64,000 nucleotides of DNA from Galdieria sulphuraria (lineage: Eukaryota > Rhodophyta > Bangiophyceae > Galdieriales > Galdieriaceae), in contig NW_005178471.1 of the NCBI RefSeq assembly GCF_000341285.1, forward strand, positions 213,739-277,738, given 5' to 3'. The notes beneath the pieces are model-generated. The model did not search any database. It was given only the letters and a program-made list of their open reading frames with translations, and was not told where the DNA came from. A program made the translations under genes and the position numbers. This document shows, in pieces, positions 51,646-57,281 of this stretch (positions are counted from its first letter, which is position 1; every line of letters begins with the position of its first letter).

Positions 51646-52764
51646 TTATCCAGTTTCAGTTTCCTTTGGATCAGGAAGAACATTATATTTGCTATAGTAG
51701 AGTCCACATCGATTGCACAAAGTCTGCTTACCAGCCGGTCCTGCTCTCATCAAAGGAGTATCACGACGTGGTATTCCACAGTTCTGACATCGAATGTCCT
51801 CATCAAAGGACGGAGCCCTCATGAGTGGTTGATGACTACTAAATGAACCTCTTCCTATTGAATAGCTGAAATTACTCATACGTTGTTGAATTTCCATCCT
51901 TCTGTTGTTTGCAATTCCAATGGGATTGGAGTACATCACATCTAAAGGTGTCGGTGAGGTTTGAGGCTTTGGGACTTTGGAGGCTCGTTTATACAAAGGT
52001 TGCTGTTCTGCTTCAGAATCTGCAATCTTCGCCTTGGACGAGTTGAAAAAATCATAACCATTTCCAAACGATCTTAATGGTCTTTTTCTTACATTCGGTT
52101 CGGGATAGCTTACTGTCGTACCAGTACCTGAACGAATGGACTCTCGTCCTTTGTTACGCCTTGCCACGCGCGCGTCTCTCGTCTCTCTCCTCTCGAGCTT
52201 CTCAAGTTGATCATCTGTCAAAATTTCCACGACTGGCTGCCACTGTGAAAGCGTTTCGGGTTTTCTATATATACCGGAGGCAGGAACGGAACCCTGCAAA
52301 CAGCGAGTATATGGGTGTTCGGCTAGTTCTTGTAGTTGCTCTCGTATGGCATGCGCAACTGCTGGAACGAATTCTCTAGTGAGACCCAAGTCTTTACACA
52401 GAGTTTCAGCAAACTCTTCGGGTGAGTTGTCGGCATTACTACGATCCCACTCGAATTGGTCTCTCAATACTACTTTCCCTATACGAATATCTAGCTTCAA
52501 GATGTGCCTTCTTTCTCCTATTTCTTCTTCAGGAGAACGATATGGAATGTAACCGGCAACTTGTTCCCTTATACTTGAAACAATGAGTTCTTCGGCCGAA
52601 TGGGGCAACGAGGTATCCACCACTACAGTCCGAGCAAATGCCCGCATCGACTCCTCTCCTTCTTCTATATTCCATAAGAATGTGTCGACAAATCTTCTTC
52701 CTGAAAGAGTCAAGTCAATTCTTATCGGTATGAGAGGATCAAAGGACTTGAAATCAGCAGACAT
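51646..52764 (-). CDS. SNF5/SMARCB1/INI1-family protein with C-terminal GATA zinc finger
   Basis: Intronless, 372 residues. Residues about 5-170 are the SNF5 domain with its two repeats (FDPLIPIRIDLTLSGRRFVD, TFLWNIEE, and KVVLRDQFEWDRSNADNSPE, then FAETLCKDLGL), the core subunit of SWI/SNF or RSC chromatin remodellers. Residues about 332-356 form a GATA-type finger: CQNCG, 17 residues with TPLMR and GPAG, then CNRCGLYYSKY. The linker is basic and low complexity. A SNF5 plus GATA layout is known from fungi; it would add direct DNA binding. The upstream ChaC gene ends 21 bp before the start. Confidence 0.9.
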   Translation of the reverse strand: MSADFKSFDPLIPIRIDLTLSGRRFVDTFLWNIEEGEESMRAFARTVVVDTSLPHSAEELIVSSIREQVAGYIPYRSPEEEIGERRHILKLDIRIGKVVLRDQFEWDRSNADNSPEEFAETLCKDLGLTREFVPAVAHAIREQLQELAEHPYTRCLQGSVPASGIYRKPETLSQWQPVVEILTDDQLEKLERRETRDARVARRNKGRESIRSGTGTTVSYPEPNVRKRPLRSFGNGYDFFNSSKAKIADSEAEQQPLYKRASKVPKPQTSPTPLDVMYSNPIGIANNRRMEIQQRMSNFSYSIGRGSFSSHQPLMRAPSFDEDIRCQNCGIPRRDTPLMRAGPAGKQTLCNRCGLYYSKYNVLPDPKETETG

Positions 52765-53443: not shown

Positions 53444-54136
53444 AGTGCAACGTTAGCCAAGAGGAATTTTCGAAGCATAAAATGTAAATGGTCCTTCGGT
53501 CGAATGATTCGTATTCGAATTTAGCTTCCAGTGATAGTTTGAAGAAAATACTAAAACTAACTCATCTTTCCTAGAAGAAGATAGCTCACTATTGTCACTG
53601 CGTGCTTATCTACTTGTTGATTCCTTGAGAATGTCGTATTACTTTAACTCTATGGGAAGTTTTCAAGGCTGTGTCTTTGAATGTATCATTGTGAATAAGA
53701 CATTCAATTATTGAAATCTGACACTGAAAGCTTCACATTGTCTTGAAAGCACTACTGTCTTTTTCAAAGAGAAGAACAAATATATCATTGGTAAAACATT
53801 GCTTCTAGGCAGTCTATTGGCAAAGCTGCAGCCTTTCTCTCTTACCTTATAAGAAGAAGAGAAAGTTAATTGTGAAGATTGGGTGTATCGAGATTTACAA
53901 CCAACTGGCTTCTGCTGCATTGTATGAAGCGCTGAAGTTGAGCTTGTCAAATTCTATCTCCTGGTTGTATTTATATCCATTGCATTCTCTATCTTTTTAA
54001 ACAAATTTCTTGATATTCGTTGCTTTGAGTTTCATAAAAAATTTTTGCTGTCTTCTAACCAGAAAAACAGCTGTTCGCACATTGGTTATCAATTTTGAAG
54101 AATTTGTAGTGCTTCGAAACGTGATTTGTATATGAA
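53444..54136. other. Divergent intergenic stretch, nothing recognised
   Basis: About 690 bp between the ChaC and GET3 starts. Only short unsupported frames; no RNA gene or repeat recognised. Confidence 0.5.
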
Positions 54137-56257
54137 ATGAAACCGCAGTTGGCAGAAGCTCTTTTGGAAAGCGGAGTATCTTGGATATTTGTTGGTGGTA
54201 AGGGTGGTGTTGGGAAAACTTCAACAAGTGCTGCTTTAGCTGTGGAGCTGGAGAGAGAAAACCGTTCAGTTTTGCTAATTTCAACTGACCCTGCACACAA
54301 CTTGAGTGATACGTTTGCTCAACAATTCAGTGGCGAACCCTCTTTGGTCAATGGGATGTCCTCTTTATACGCAATGGAAGTTGATGATAGCTCCCTACAC
54401 AACTCGAGTATCAAGGAACTCGTCGGCTTACTGAGAGAATCTAGTAGAAGCGTATTTGGCGGAACGCTCTTTGGTCGTTCAGAGGAATATCCACAGAGTG
54501 AACAAGGAAACAGTGAGAATATTGATTCTTTGCTAGAGCAACTTACGTCTTCGGTGCCTGGAATTGATGAAGCTTTAGCTTTTGCCACTATGATCGAGTA
54601 CGTAGAAAATATGCGATTTGATATCGTAATCTTTGATACTGCACCAACAGGACATACCTTGCGTCTCCTGAACTTCCCAAATCTCTTGGATAGAGGCCTT
54701 ACGCAGATATGGAATTGGAGCTCTCAGTTTGGTGGTATTTTCCAAAGTATGGGAAGCTTGTTTGGTTTGCAGCAAGATTTTTTTGGACAACTTGCCAATA
54801 AGCTGGAGCGCTTTCGAGATTTGACACAGAAGGTTATCCATCAATTCCAGGACCCTAGAAAGACTACTTTTGTTGCTGTTTGTATTCCGGAGTTCCTCCC
54901 TATTTATGAAACAGAGCGTCTTTTACAAGACTTGAAGAAATTCCAAATTGATTGCAAATATATTATTGTTAACCATGTAATCAATGAATCAATTCAACTT
55001 GGAATGAACCCAGAAGATCTCTTTCACTCCAGAGTTAAGGTACAAAATAAGTACATAGAAAAAGTAAGGGATTTATATTCTGCGGATTTTCACGTAACAA
55101 AGTTGCCATTGCTTCCTTATGAGGTCAGAGGTTTAGCGACTATCAGTACTTTTGCGAAATTATTGCTCGGAACAAATAATCCATTTTATAAAGAGTTTTT
55201 GAAAAAGGAGAGCCACTCATTGGACATTGAAGAATATCCTCCTACGTTGCAGAATGTATTAGACGAAGACTCTCTACGATGGATTTTTATTGGTGGAAAA
55301 GGAGGAGTTGGGAAGACTAGTGTCTCTTCTGCTTTGGCAACTCTTTTATCTGAAAGGACTGAAGGTCGCGTGCTATTGGTTTCTACAGATCCTGCTCATA
55401 ATCTATCTGATGCATTCAATCAGTCTTTTTCTTCATCACCTACAGCAGTAGAAGGGAATACTCGACTTGATGTAATGGAAGTTTCTCCCAATGTCGAAGA
55501 GCTATTTACTCAAGATCAAGACGGTGGTCTTCCTTTTGATATACCAGGTTTCGGGGACTTTGGAAACATTCGTAGTCGAATTCGGGATATATTTTCAGAT
55601 ATGATATCTTCTATACCTGGTATTGATGAAGCAATCAGTTTTGGTCATATCGTTCGTTTTATTCGAAACCAGGACTACAAAGTTGTGGTCTTTGATACTG
55701 CACCGACTGGACATACCTTGCGACTTCTGAGTTTCCCTTCAGTATTAGAGAACGGAGTTTCTTGGTTGTCTTCGTTTCAAGAACAATATTTACCTTTGTT
55801 GCAAAGTGCAGCAGCAATGATGCAAAATTCCAATGCAACTGGCAACCAGAGTTTTTCCCCGAGAGATATTGAGAATTTAATGAAACAGAAACTTCGGGAA
55901 CTCAAAGCTACAATAGAAACAGTTCAAGAACAATTTCGAGACCCAAGTTGTACGACTTTTATTTGTGTTACAATAGCAGAAGCTCTTTCTATATACGAAA
56001 CGGAGCGGCTTGTTCAACAACTTGCTTCTTATGATATGGACTGTAGAAATATCGTTGTCAATCAGTTGTTTGATCCAAATGAGGAGCATAAGAAAGAAAT
56101 GTTATTGCTTCGTGCCAAAATGCAACAAAAATATTTGGATCAAGTGGACGAACTCTATTCCAGTGACTCATTTGTGATAAAAGCCCCTCTTTTACCTGAG
56201 GAATTGTATGGCTTGGAACACTTGAAAATGTTTGCGAACTATCTGAAACTCCCGTAA
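54137..56257 (+). CDS. Tandem GET3/ArsA-type ATPase (two ATPase domains in one chain)
   Basis: Single exon, 706 residues, about twice the length of GET3. Domain 1 (residues 1-355) and domain 2 (about 370-706) each have the deviant P-loop GGKGGVGKTS (residues about 20 and 386), switch I STDPAHNLSD, and switch II FDTAPTGHTLRLL. Both also carry a long insert between switch II and the C-terminal part (GLQQDFFGQLANKLERF; LPLLQSAAAMMQNS), where GET3 binds tail-anchored helices. The segment that carries the zinc CxxC in GET3 is present but has no Cys pair (NHVINESIQLGMNPEDLF; NQLFDPNEEHKKEMLLLR). GET3 normally is a zinc-bridged homodimer; here the pair is covalent, as in bacterial ArsA. GET3-like client binding is more likely than arsenite efflux, but that is inference. 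Confidence 0.92.
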   Translation: MKPQLAEALLESGVSWIFVGGKGGVGKTSTSAALAVELERENRSVLLISTDPAHNLSDTFAQQFSGEPSLVNGMSSLYAMEVDDSSLHNSSIKELVGLLRESSRSVFGGTLFGRSEEYPQSEQGNSENIDSLLEQLTSSVPGIDEALAFATMIEYVENMRFDIVIFDTAPTGHTLRLLNFPNLLDRGLTQIWNWSSQFGGIFQSMGSLFGLQQDFFGQLANKLERFRDLTQKVIHQFQDPRKTTFVAVCIPEFLPIYETERLLQDLKKFQIDCKYIIVNHVINESIQLGMNPEDLFHSRVKVQNKYIEKVRDLYSADFHVTKLPLLPYEVRGLATISTFAKLLLGTNNPFYKEFLKKESHSLDIEEYPPTLQNVLDEDSLRWIFIGGKGGVGKTSVSSALATLLSERTEGRVLLVSTDPAHNLSDAFNQSFSSSPTAVEGNTRLDVMEVSPNVEELFTQDQDGGLPFDIPGFGDFGNIRSRIRDIFSDMISSIPGIDEAISFGHIVRFIRNQDYKVVVFDTAPTGHTLRLLSFPSVLENGVSWLSSFQEQYLPLLQSAAAMMQNSNATGNQSFSPRDIENLMKQKLRELKATIETVQEQFRDPSCTTFICVTIAEALSIYETERLVQQLASYDMDCRNIVVNQLFDPNEEHKKEMLLLRAKMQQKYLDQVDELYSSDSFVIKAPLLPEELYGLEHLKMFANYLKLP

Positions 56258-56457: not shown

Positions 56458-57039
56458 TCAGCTAACAGGAATATCCGCCTCCTTCACATTACTTTCTTCT
56501 TCCACCTGGTCAAAAGTTTTGGTTTCCACAAGCTCTGGAATATCGTCGTCGTCTTCTTTTGACTTTTCCCCGTTTTCTGTAGCGTCACCCTTATCATCCG
56601 TCGTACTGAGACTCTCCATAAGGGAACGCATTTGCGCTAGATTATCCGAACCCAACTGATTGAGGACGTTAGGAAGTAATTCCTGAAGTGACTTGGTTTC
56701 TCCTTGGCCGGATACCACGTAAGTGTTCGCTCCGATGGCTGCTTGAACTAGAAGAACATTAATAAAGAGTTCAAATAAAAGTAAACTTTGCACACCTTTA
56801 GGAGTCGTAAAATTGATCACTTGTCCGTTATCTTTGAAGATATTTACCTCCTCAATTCCAGGTATTTGATTCAGGCCCAGACGCTTCAAGGTGCTTTGAA
56901 GTCGCTTATCATCAGTCGGTGTTCCTTTGTGAACTGCCTTCTTCTTTCTCCTAACAGTGCCTTTCCCACCAGTTCGAACATTCACAGCCATTCTTTGTAG
57001 CTTTGCCAACTTCTCATTTTTCAGAGTCTCATTTTCCAT
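56458..57039 (-). CDS. BTF3: Nascent polypeptide-associated complex subunit beta (BTF3)
   Basis: Exons 56796..57039 and 56458..56747 with a 48-bp intron encode 177 residues. NAC-beta binds ribosomes near the exit tunnel with its basic motif, seen here as VRTGGKGTVRRKKKAVHKG. The NAC domain continues with LKRLGLNQIPGIEEVNIF and VINFTTPK|VQAAIGANTYVVSG (bar marks the splice). The acidic tail is family-typical. The intron length is a multiple of three with no stop, so an unspliced message would encode 16 extra residues inside the NAC barrel. The start is the ATG giving MENETLKNEKLAKLQRMA; the frame is open further upstream without an ATG. Confidence 0.93.
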   Translation of the reverse strand: MENETLKNEKLAKLQRMAVNVRTGGKGTVRRKKKAVHKGTPTDDKRLQSTLKRLGLNQIPGIEEVNIFKDNGQVINFTTPKGVQSLLLFELFINVLLVQAAIGANTYVVSGQGETKSLQELLPNVLNQLGSDNLAQMRSLMESLSTTDDKGDATENGEKSKEDDDDIPELVETKTFDQVEEESNVKEADIPVS

Positions 57040-57281
57040 TATAGTTTCGGGACTGCACCGAGCTACAGCAGCCTTTGGAAATTCCAAGAAGGAAACTGAT
57101 TTAGGGCACGATCGGCGGTTAAGTCGATTGAAAGACTTGTTGAGATGTAATTCTAATATCGTTTGGCTTTTGTTTATTGAATATGGACTTGAGCTGTTCT
57201 CCAATAAAAGTTTTTCCTAGAAATCAGTTTTATTGACGAATAGATGTTCACTTTTTACAACGACCGTATCGTTTTACGCTA

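Follow-up and report, generated by a model that had tools for sequence, protein, structure and literature searches.

Eukaryotic GET3/TRC40 is taught as a homodimer clasped by zinc, and bacterial ArsA is a tandem. The window analyzed here, a 64,000-nucleotide stretch of the Galdieria sulphuraria genome (contig NW_005178471.1, positions 213,739 to 277,738), contains a gene that places two such ATPase cores in a single chain. The locus thereby raises the question of whether its product is a GET3, an ArsA, or two genes joined in error, and of whether the absence of a zinc site is a consequence of the fusion.

The preliminary description had claimed two full ATPase cores in a single 706-codon frame, with the CxxC missing from both halves, and both observations are borne out. 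The frame opens with the ATG at 54137 and closes with the TAA at 56255-56257, contains no internal stop, and has its closest in-frame 5' stop at 54122. The Pfam profile ArsA_ATPase (PF02374) matches the 706-residue protein in two segments, with 600.1 bits against a cut-off of 24.3 (E 1e-180). The motifs GGKGGVGKT, STDPAHN, and DTAPTGHT occur in each half, and their places in the DNA were rechecked. The only cysteines are residues 249, 273, 605, 610, and 636, none of which lies within a CxxC. The boundary between the halves in the following list is our own choice and was placed inside the linker.

54137..56257, + strand: tandem (covalent) GET3a gene, 706 codons, from the ORF scan and translation, with two PF02374 stretches
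54137..55198, + strand: N half, GET3a core 1, residues 1-354; best PDB match human ASNA1 (6so5, 284.3 bits); GET3a clade
54197..54220, + strand: P-loop 1, GKGGVGKT, residues 21-28
54281..54301, + strand: switch I 1, STDPAHN, residues 49-55
54635..54658, + strand: switch II 1, DTAPTGHT, residues 167-174
54971..54976, + strand: NH of the N half, residues 279-280; NQ in 123 of 123 sampled single-domain GET3a
55013..55024, + strand: former CxxC position of the N half by alignment, EDLF, residues 293-296
55121..55132, + strand: intact EVRG of the N half, residues 329-332, which we equate with the A-loop
55133..55294, + strand: 54-residue stretch from the N-half EVRG to P-loop 2 (last N-half helix, linker, first C-half helix and strand)
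55199..56254, + strand: C half, GET3a core 2, residues 355-706; best PDB match Aspergillus Get3 (3ibg, 284.4 bits); GET3a clade
55295..55318, + strand: P-loop 2, GKGGVGKT, residues 387-394
55382..55402, + strand: switch I 2, STDPAHN, residues 416-422
55694..55717, + strand: switch II 2, DTAPTGHT, residues 520-527
56093..56104, + strand: former CxxC position of the C half, KEML, residues 653-656
56201..56212, + strand: degenerate A-loop motif of the C half, ELYG instead of E[VI]RG, residues 689-692

That two neighboring genes were joined by the gene model or the assembly is exceedingly improbable, the unusual architecture being the only point in favor. The uninterrupted DNA frame argues against it, as do 49 other red-algal sequences of this layout from many sources. 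These include transcript collections, in which the fused frame is found in P0012 and P0059 (mmetsp) and P0017 (GFKZ entry, eukprot), and an artefact was rejected on these grounds. The Galdieria partita record P0002 is also 706 residues long, with 89% identity and the identical two-core layout. Because G. partita and other red algae, some represented by transcript-derived sequences, share this layout, the 706-codon frame is not a product of chance. A promoter scan of the locus with a bacterial-type tool returned promoters at chance level.

Besides Galdieria, the tandem occurs in Hildenbrandia, Gracilariopsis, Chondrus, Porphyridium, and Rhodosorus, and a Galdieria-only tandem was therefore rejected; no Cyanidioschyzon-named sequence was present among the matches listed, the 120 best of about 8,000 that were scored. 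Eight of the 65 tandem-type matches (P0001-P0065) were dropped because the search pattern did not find two P-loops. P0013 and P0052 are near-complete tandems, P0048 is N-terminally shortened, the first P-loop region is missing from P0062-P0065, and P0005 represents part of the 54137-56257 frame itself; CxxC occurs in none of the eight. Since rows were selected by the P-loop pattern, counts of P-loops are biased. A viral-contig scan with the metagenomic tandem P0049 gave no relatives. No publication on a red-algal GET3 tandem was found in the open literature among the matches listed, and a mention elsewhere is possible.

To place the protein, trees were built with 50 complete red-algal tandems, the window protein included. 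Both halves fall inside eukaryotic GET3a (support 100/99) against archaeal Get3, bacterial homologues, and the GET3b-like sequence ownC28. In a quick tree, the GET3a rows, including the red halves, split from an outgroup holding ArsA1-type halves with support 97; P0067, P0069, P0071, P0073, the ArsA1-type rows, and the distant CxxC tandems, all long or distant rows, were left out between the quick and the main tree. The identity of the N half to six single-domain GET3a is 42-44% and that of the C half 44-48%. The profile TIGR00345 (GET3_arsA_TRC40) scores 511.8 bits against a cut-off of 135, and the curated ArsA equivalog TIGR04291 only 252.9 bits against 650. The earlier assignment to GET3 rather than ArsA therefore holds. 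Bacterial ArsA (1f48, 9nbl) likewise carries two cores on one chain and belongs to the same superfamily, and Pfam labels both cores of the Galdieria protein ArsA_ATPase; an arsenite pump ATPase of the bacterial type is nevertheless highly unlikely. In addition to the missed curated cut-off, the PDB sequence match to ASNA1 reaches 290 bits, compared with 122 bits for E. coli ArsA. Residues 1-248 and 274-604, where our unaligned mapping of the residue numbers in PMC5382584 leads one to expect the ArsA metal cysteines, contain no cysteine. On the curated score, the tree, and the cysteines, we rejected an ArsA identity and regard ArsA as a separate family.

A second known tandem is plastid Cr-ArsA1 from Chlamydomonas (PDB 5zme/5zmf), which has two GET3-type cores in one chain and lacks CxxC. 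According to PMC11170914, it is a pseudodimer associated with chloroplast tail-anchored proteins, in which domain-swapped-like extended helices may replace the zinc site. It is very unlikely that our gene is the red-algal orthologue of Cr-ArsA1 instead of a cytosolic GET3a, even though the predicted overall fold is alike, CxxC is missing in both, and Cr-ArsA1 is one of the top sequence matches, with 284.8 bits in two stretches. The ArsA1-type halves branch outside GET3a (97). C49, a separate ArsA1-type tandem in the Galdieria genome, matches the ArsA1-type Rhodosorus protein P0121, and Rhodosorus has both types (P0018 and P0121). Moreover, the Galdieria tandem lacks an N-terminal extension: its P-loop starts at residue 21, with a median of 25 in the 50 reds (3-152) versus 59 in 21 hand-picked ArsA1-type tandems (4-131). 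The tree and the separate gene led us to reject orthology. Green ArsA1-type N and C halves group together in a clade of their own (P0075, P0091; 99, quick tree), so the ArsA1 fusion looks independent of the red fusion, and our best reading is a one-chain GET3a convergent with plastid ArsA1.

When did the fusion occur? In the main tree, support is 98/85 for a clade of red N halves and 83/89 for a clade of red C halves, each with Galdieria sister to the other reds. A further analysis unites the red N and C halves with support 79/84, and a tree with the CxxC columns masked does so with 94/85. In the masked tree the C halves group at 100/97 and the red N halves are not one clade; the quick tree leaves the red N halves without resolution. 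A topology test of red N and metagenomic N halves as one clade gave a borderline p of 0.0498. As judged from these sequences, the best supported scenario is that a GET3a gene underwent duplication and head-to-tail fusion, most likely a single time, before Galdieria diverged from the other reds sampled. As to whether the duplication is lineage-specific, a check that had been proposed earlier, its best placement is inside the red lineage, and it is not confined to Galdieria. The sponge Sycon ciliatum also has a GET3a-type tandem (P0058), but its halves are sisters (100/99) and each keeps CxxC, so either the fusion arose separately there or the gene model joins two genes.

The preliminary description had further proposed that the zinc bridge became dispensable through fusion. 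In support of this order of events, with CxxC lost from both halves as a consequence, CxxC is absent from all 100 halves of the 50 complete red tandems and from all 12 halves of an independent group of metagenomic tandems (P0010, P0011, P0047, P0049, P0056, and P0060). Furthermore, the exchange of C-terminal tails that we read from both structure models (see below) would be located at the former zinc site, and CxxC is present in P0070 and P0078, two animal sequences that rank with the best single-core matches to the red profile. However, 27 of the 123 unfused GET3a sampled in the alignment lack it, so CxxC is not a defining feature of GET3a. Its absence is also published (PMC8644595, PMC11170914, PMC5382584) for unfused plant GET3a, green-algal Cr-ArsA2, and diatom Pt-Get3a. 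Among 35 listed one-core relatives, 34 are single-domain proteins lacking CxxC, in a ranking that includes the CxxC helix; the remaining one, P0264, is fused to a J-domain protein and keeps it. A single clade of red and green GET3a was not rejected (p-AU 0.154). Conversely, CxxC occurs twice in the Sycon tandem and twice in each of five distant tandems from metagenomes (P0074, P0086, P0087, P0092, and P0098). The proposal is not supported, and fusion followed by zinc loss is unlikely. Because unfused GET3a without CxxC exist and the Sycon tandem keeps two, fusion looks, on sequence grounds, neither necessary nor sufficient for the loss.

The Galdieria tandem shares family, motifs, and a putative client-binding subdomain with GET3/TRC40/ASNA1, including plant GET3a and diatom Pt-Get3a. 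Single-domain proteins, however, are separate subunits that need to dimerize, whereas in our protein the two are fused and have diverged, with 40% identity between the N and C halves. The NQ position is changed in all five Galdieria-type N halves (NH in four, NN in one). The C-half A-loop motif is degenerate in four of the five Galdieria-type tandems, all 45 other reds examined retain it intact, and the C-half switch II is altered in 4 of 50 red tandems. The first P-loop reads GKGGCGKT in P0013 and P0052, both outside these counts. Given the degenerate A-loop, the switch II changes, and these P-loops, one ATP site may not cycle in some reds. The TRC40-insert segment is present in both halves, with a hydrophobic fraction of 0.43 (N) and 0.41 (C) compared with 0.43 in 123 singles. 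Its GRAVY values are 0.17 (N) and -0.21 (C) here and 0.36 (N) and -0.23 (C) in 45 other reds, with 0.14 in singles. As to the idea that fusion allows the halves to specialize, these motif changes and the less hydrophobic C-half insert are hints only.

Structure prediction, which had been proposed as a check for a closed pseudodimer, is consistent with a one-chain pseudodimer in both models built. Cr-ArsA1 is the best full-length structural match of each, with 27-29% identity in the Foldseek alignments: the P0001 model (pLDDT 73.8, pTM 0.69) aligns with 5zmf over 571 residues at 3.8 A, and the Rhodosorus model (pLDDT 83.3, pTM 0.83) over 574 residues at 3.6 A. For most single Get3 chains the alignment covers 250-317 residues at about 2-4 A, and in the model it extends from the N-terminus to the C-terminus. 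This suggests that the C-terminal tails that follow the old zinc site are swapped between the predicted halves, a feature read indirectly from the first and last aligned residues that the aligner reports. Divergence correlations across 45 of the 50 red tandems, whose pairs are not independent, gave a mixed outcome: the N tail tracks the C core (0.51) more closely than the N core (0.18), and the C tail tracks both alike (0.34, 0.32). Alternatively, each half may fold on itself, with the linker merely tethering two ordinary GET3 cores. The halves are complete, in six reds 45-54 residues separate EVRG from P-loop 2, and the predictor, which may know 5zme, may have copied the exchange from it, the first alignment having included four ArsA1-type rows. 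Yet one of the two models was built without any ArsA1-type row, in both models 50 of 50 PDB rows listed span the first 19 to the last 7 model residues, and Foldseek alignments of single Get3 chains (about 310-356 columns) superpose poorly, at about 12-15 A. We consider a pseudodimer without exchange possible but the less probable arrangement.

The gene is filed as a covalent GET3a variant because two cores lie in one frame and an intramolecular pseudodimer is predicted. It probably encodes the cytosolic GET3a (TRC40/ASNA1) of the red alga, a one-chain pseudodimer that targets tail-anchored proteins. The two cores would fold together within the chain, bind ATP, and receive a tail-anchored protein from SGTA/GET4, closing a single client groove over its transmembrane segment; the groove would open on ATP hydrolysis at the ER. 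The dimer would be held by the covalent linker and by the predicted swap of C-terminal tails, which begin with the helix that follows the former zinc site; a zinc clasp would then not be needed. We infer client binding, ER targeting, and the ATP cycle by analogy from family knowledge, and the cytosolic location from family knowledge and the short N-terminus. A more specific, tentative and rather doubtful version is a convergent, tail-exchanged, zinc-free cytosolic GET3 that in Galdieria would be asymmetric, one ATP site working and the other structural. If the tails are exchanged, each ATP site would be built from both halves, and the NH of the N half and the ELYG of the C half would consequently fall in one site and leave the other intact.

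The genomic context was surveyed by searching the G. sulphuraria genome with PF02374. Besides the tandem, the matches were the intron-rich C49, a chlL-like gene (C36), two short weak matches at C19 and C6, and C28, a GET3b-like single-domain protein with CSFC and an N-terminal extension. A check for a second, single-domain GET3 thus returned C28 and no single-domain GET3a. Regarding the homologues of GET1/GET2 that had been sought as partners, an exon-by-exon genome search did not detect GET1 (PF04420), nor, in searches without a positive control, CAML (PF14963) or Tugs (PF17840); GET4 (84.2 bits) and an SGTA-type frame of 425 residues are present.

For the family, the one-chain GET3a of red algae has several implications. 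Together with plastid ArsA1, the metagenomic group, and perhaps the sponge, it suggests repeated fusion of the GET3/ArsA fold, and its comparison with unfused GET3a lacking CxxC separates zinc loss from fusion. Red-algal GET3 seems to have been a single chain since long ago, leaving each half and each ATP site free to change separately, and the tandem lets one ask how far the GET3 cycle requires two equal subunits.

The gene at the centre of this analysis occupies a single uninterrupted frame whose nearest preceding in-frame stop lies at 54122.

54137-56257, forward strand: tandem GET3a gene, 706 open codons, ATG start, TAA end

Pfam places two ArsA_ATPase stretches in the encoded protein (600 bits in total), and each half carries a P-loop (GGKGGVGKT), a switch I (STDPAHN) and a switch II (DTAPTGHT). 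In the alignment, the positions of the zinc-binding CxxC are occupied by EDLF in the N half and KEML in the C half, and a scan of the whole protein sequence found no CxxC. Frame, Pfam, motif and alignment evidence agree with the preliminary description of two complete cores in one 706-codon frame, both without CxxC. Among the best 120 of 7988 matches, the nearest relative is a Galdieria partita protein of equal length (89% identical), which points to a Galdieria-like red alga as the source. Two neighbouring frames on the reverse strand were also observed. A NAC-domain (BTF3-like) frame (56458-57204) and the tandem gene meet tail to tail across a gap of ∼200 bases, probably by chance, and at 51646-52764 a SNF5 domain and a C-terminal GATA zinc finger are joined in one frame, a pairing that is unusual for a chromatin-remodelling subunit.

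GET3/ASNA1 chains were the best solved relatives by sequence, both for the whole protein and for each half. Cr-ArsA1, the fused two-core plastid protein of Chlamydomonas, also ranked high, and bacterial ArsA far lower. The protein is assigned to TIGR00345 (GET3_arsA_TRC40) by the criterion of that model; a bacterial ArsA identity was considered and rejected because the ArsA equivalog score fell short by a wide margin. Maximum likelihood applied to 80 rows, including 13 red proteins with both halves, placed the red halves inside eukaryotic GET3a, in line with the GET3 reading of the preliminary description. Support of 100/99 sets GET3a apart from Get3 of methanogens, homologues of Bacillota and Chlorobiota, and the GET3b-like gene of the same genome. 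The halves of ArsA1-type tandems fell outside GET3a (support 97) in an earlier quick tree that contained them. Separately, a eukaryote-type GET3 with CSNC (60% to the alignment) was noted on contig JALHRR010000111.1, which is catalogued as part of a Saprospiraceae metagenome-assembled genome; the protein groups near fungal rows in the tree and is likely contamination.

The protein search (best 120 of 7988 matches) recovered tandems from Galdieria, Hildenbrandia, Gracilariopsis, Gracilaria, Agarophyton, Chondrus, Porphyridium, Rhodosorus, and many unnamed sources. A two-P-loop pattern was passed by 57 of the first 65 tandem-type matches: 50 red proteins (the window protein included), six of a metagenomic group, and one from a sponge. 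Many rows are unnamed, and "red" is here a label assigned from the tree. The family, tandem nature, and distribution of the protein are shown. The 80-row tree groups the red N halves (98/85) and, separately, the red C halves (83/89), with Galdieria sister to the remaining reds in each of the two clades. Red N and C halves together are one clade (79/84). After the CxxC columns had been masked and a different set of rows taken, the joint clade received 94/85 and the C halves 100/97; the long Galdieria N branch was then basal and the N halves were not one clade (82/19). Red N halves were unresolved in the quick tree. The simplest reading of these trees is that a single duplication and fusion preceded the split between Galdieria and other reds. 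A topology joining red N halves with metagenomic N halves was borderline rejected (p 0.0498). The metagenomic tandems (P0010, P0011, P0047, P0049, P0056, and P0060), with CxxC in 0 of 12 halves, form one clade of N and C halves (100/100), and the two halves of the Sycon ciliatum tandem P0058 are sisters (100/99), so both look like independent fusions, although P0058 may be either a genuine fused protein or the product of a gene model that joins two genes.

The suggestion that fusion made the zinc bridge dispensable is not supported. CxxC is absent from all 50 red N halves and all 50 red C halves. In the same alignment, 96 of 123 single-domain GET3a proteins have CxxC and 27 do not, and the Sycon tandem retains it in both halves (CKMC and CDMC). 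Of the 27, 17 have SKLL at the site, the form found in most named green plants and algae of the sampled set. Unfused GET3a proteins without CxxC are also described in published work on Arabidopsis GET3a, Cr-ArsA2, and diatom Pt-Get3a (PMC8644595, PMC11170914, PMC5382584). Because such unfused proteins exist and the Sycon tandem keeps the motif, fusion looks neither necessary nor sufficient for CxxC loss. Red and green GET3a as one clade was not rejected (p 0.154) and the GET3a backbone was unresolved; the loss in red algae may have come before the fusion or after it, both being compatible with the tree. As a side observation, the distant GET3/ArsA-type tandems P0074, P0086, P0087, P0092, and P0098 have two CxxC each, which in the four that were aligned lie at the zinc column of both halves.

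AlphaFold2 models were built for the window protein (48 tandems in the alignment, 4 of them ArsA1-type; pLDDT 73.8, pTM 0.69) and for the Rhodosorus tandem (44 red rows, zero ArsA1-type; pLDDT 83.3, pTM 0.83). Both matched Cr-ArsA1 end to end in Foldseek (TM 0.70-0.72), and VIA superposed Cr-ArsA1 over 571 residues at 3.8 Å (window protein) and 574 at 3.6 Å (Rhodosorus). Single Get3 chains gave Foldseek alignments of ∼310 to 356 columns at ∼12 to 15 Å, and most gave 250 to 317 residues at ∼2 to 4 Å by VIA, with ranges spanning the model's first 19 to last 7 residues; the ranges of all 50 listed rows per model do likewise. A pseudodimer is predicted, and we read the ranges as indirect indication that one fold unit would combine the N core with the tail at the C-terminus of the C half, and the other unit the reverse, the tails being exchanged beyond the former zinc site; this is taken from alignment ranges rather than coordinates, and 5zme, a Cr-ArsA1 structure, may have been part of what the predictor learned.

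The two halves also differ in sequence. In Galdieria-type tandems, NH or NN replaces NQ in the N half (5/5) and ELYG, ELCG, or ELNG replaces E[VI]RG in the C half (4/5); both motifs are intact in both halves of 45/45 non-Galdieria reds. We take EVRG to be the A-loop and NQ to be part of the adenine pocket. If the tails are exchanged, the two changes would share one composite ATP site. Elsewhere among the reds, C-half switch II is altered (DMAPTGHA or DLAPTGHA) in P0041, P0043, P0053, and P0054, and N-half switch I in P0028, P0041, and P0043, two of which have DTAPTGHS in the N half. P0041 has SGKGGVGKT in both halves, and the first P-loop reads GKGGCGKT in the near-complete red tandems P0013 and P0052, which are not part of the counts. 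Red C halves carry a less hydrophobic TRC40 insert than red N halves do.

The search of the Galdieria genome (12.05 Mb, 102 contigs) with PF02374 returned these further matches.

C49:43500-47500: intron-rich ArsA1-type tandem (L023)
C28:10800-13200: single-domain GET3b-like gene with N-terminal extension, CSFC kept (L024)
C36: chlL-like gene, for which reason C36 looks like the plastid contig
C19 and C6: two short weak matches

The single-domain gene at C28 is GET3b-like; no single-domain GET3a was found among the matches, the two short weak ones aside. GET4 (C40), an SGTA-type protein (C7, 425 aa), and EMC3 are present. Profiles of GET1, CAML, and Tugs had no match, and we do not claim their absence since an exon-by-exon search can miss small split genes. 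The P-loop starts at residue 21 in the window protein (median 25 in reds versus 59 in ArsA1-type tandems, with overlapping ranges), a short N-terminus compatible with a cytosolic location.

Most likely, and with good overall confidence, the window protein performs the GET3 role as a single chain. It would accept tail-anchored proteins from SGTA/GET4, shield the transmembrane domain in a groove made by both halves, and free the client at the ER upon ATP hydrolysis; this client work and ATP cycle we infer. A covalent GET3-type pseudodimer without CxxC is already known in Cr-ArsA1, and some red-algal sequences are already named ATPase GET3 or ASNA1 in database entries. PMC10248533 describes splitting pseudodimers for a GET3/ArsA tree, and its main text does not contain the term "red alga". 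No work on red-algal tandem GET3 was found in the open literature searched, part of which was represented by best-ranked matches. Within that literature, what appears unreported is that this red alga's sole detected GET3a takes the form of such a CxxC-free tandem, which other reds share and which is both ancient and convergent with ArsA1.
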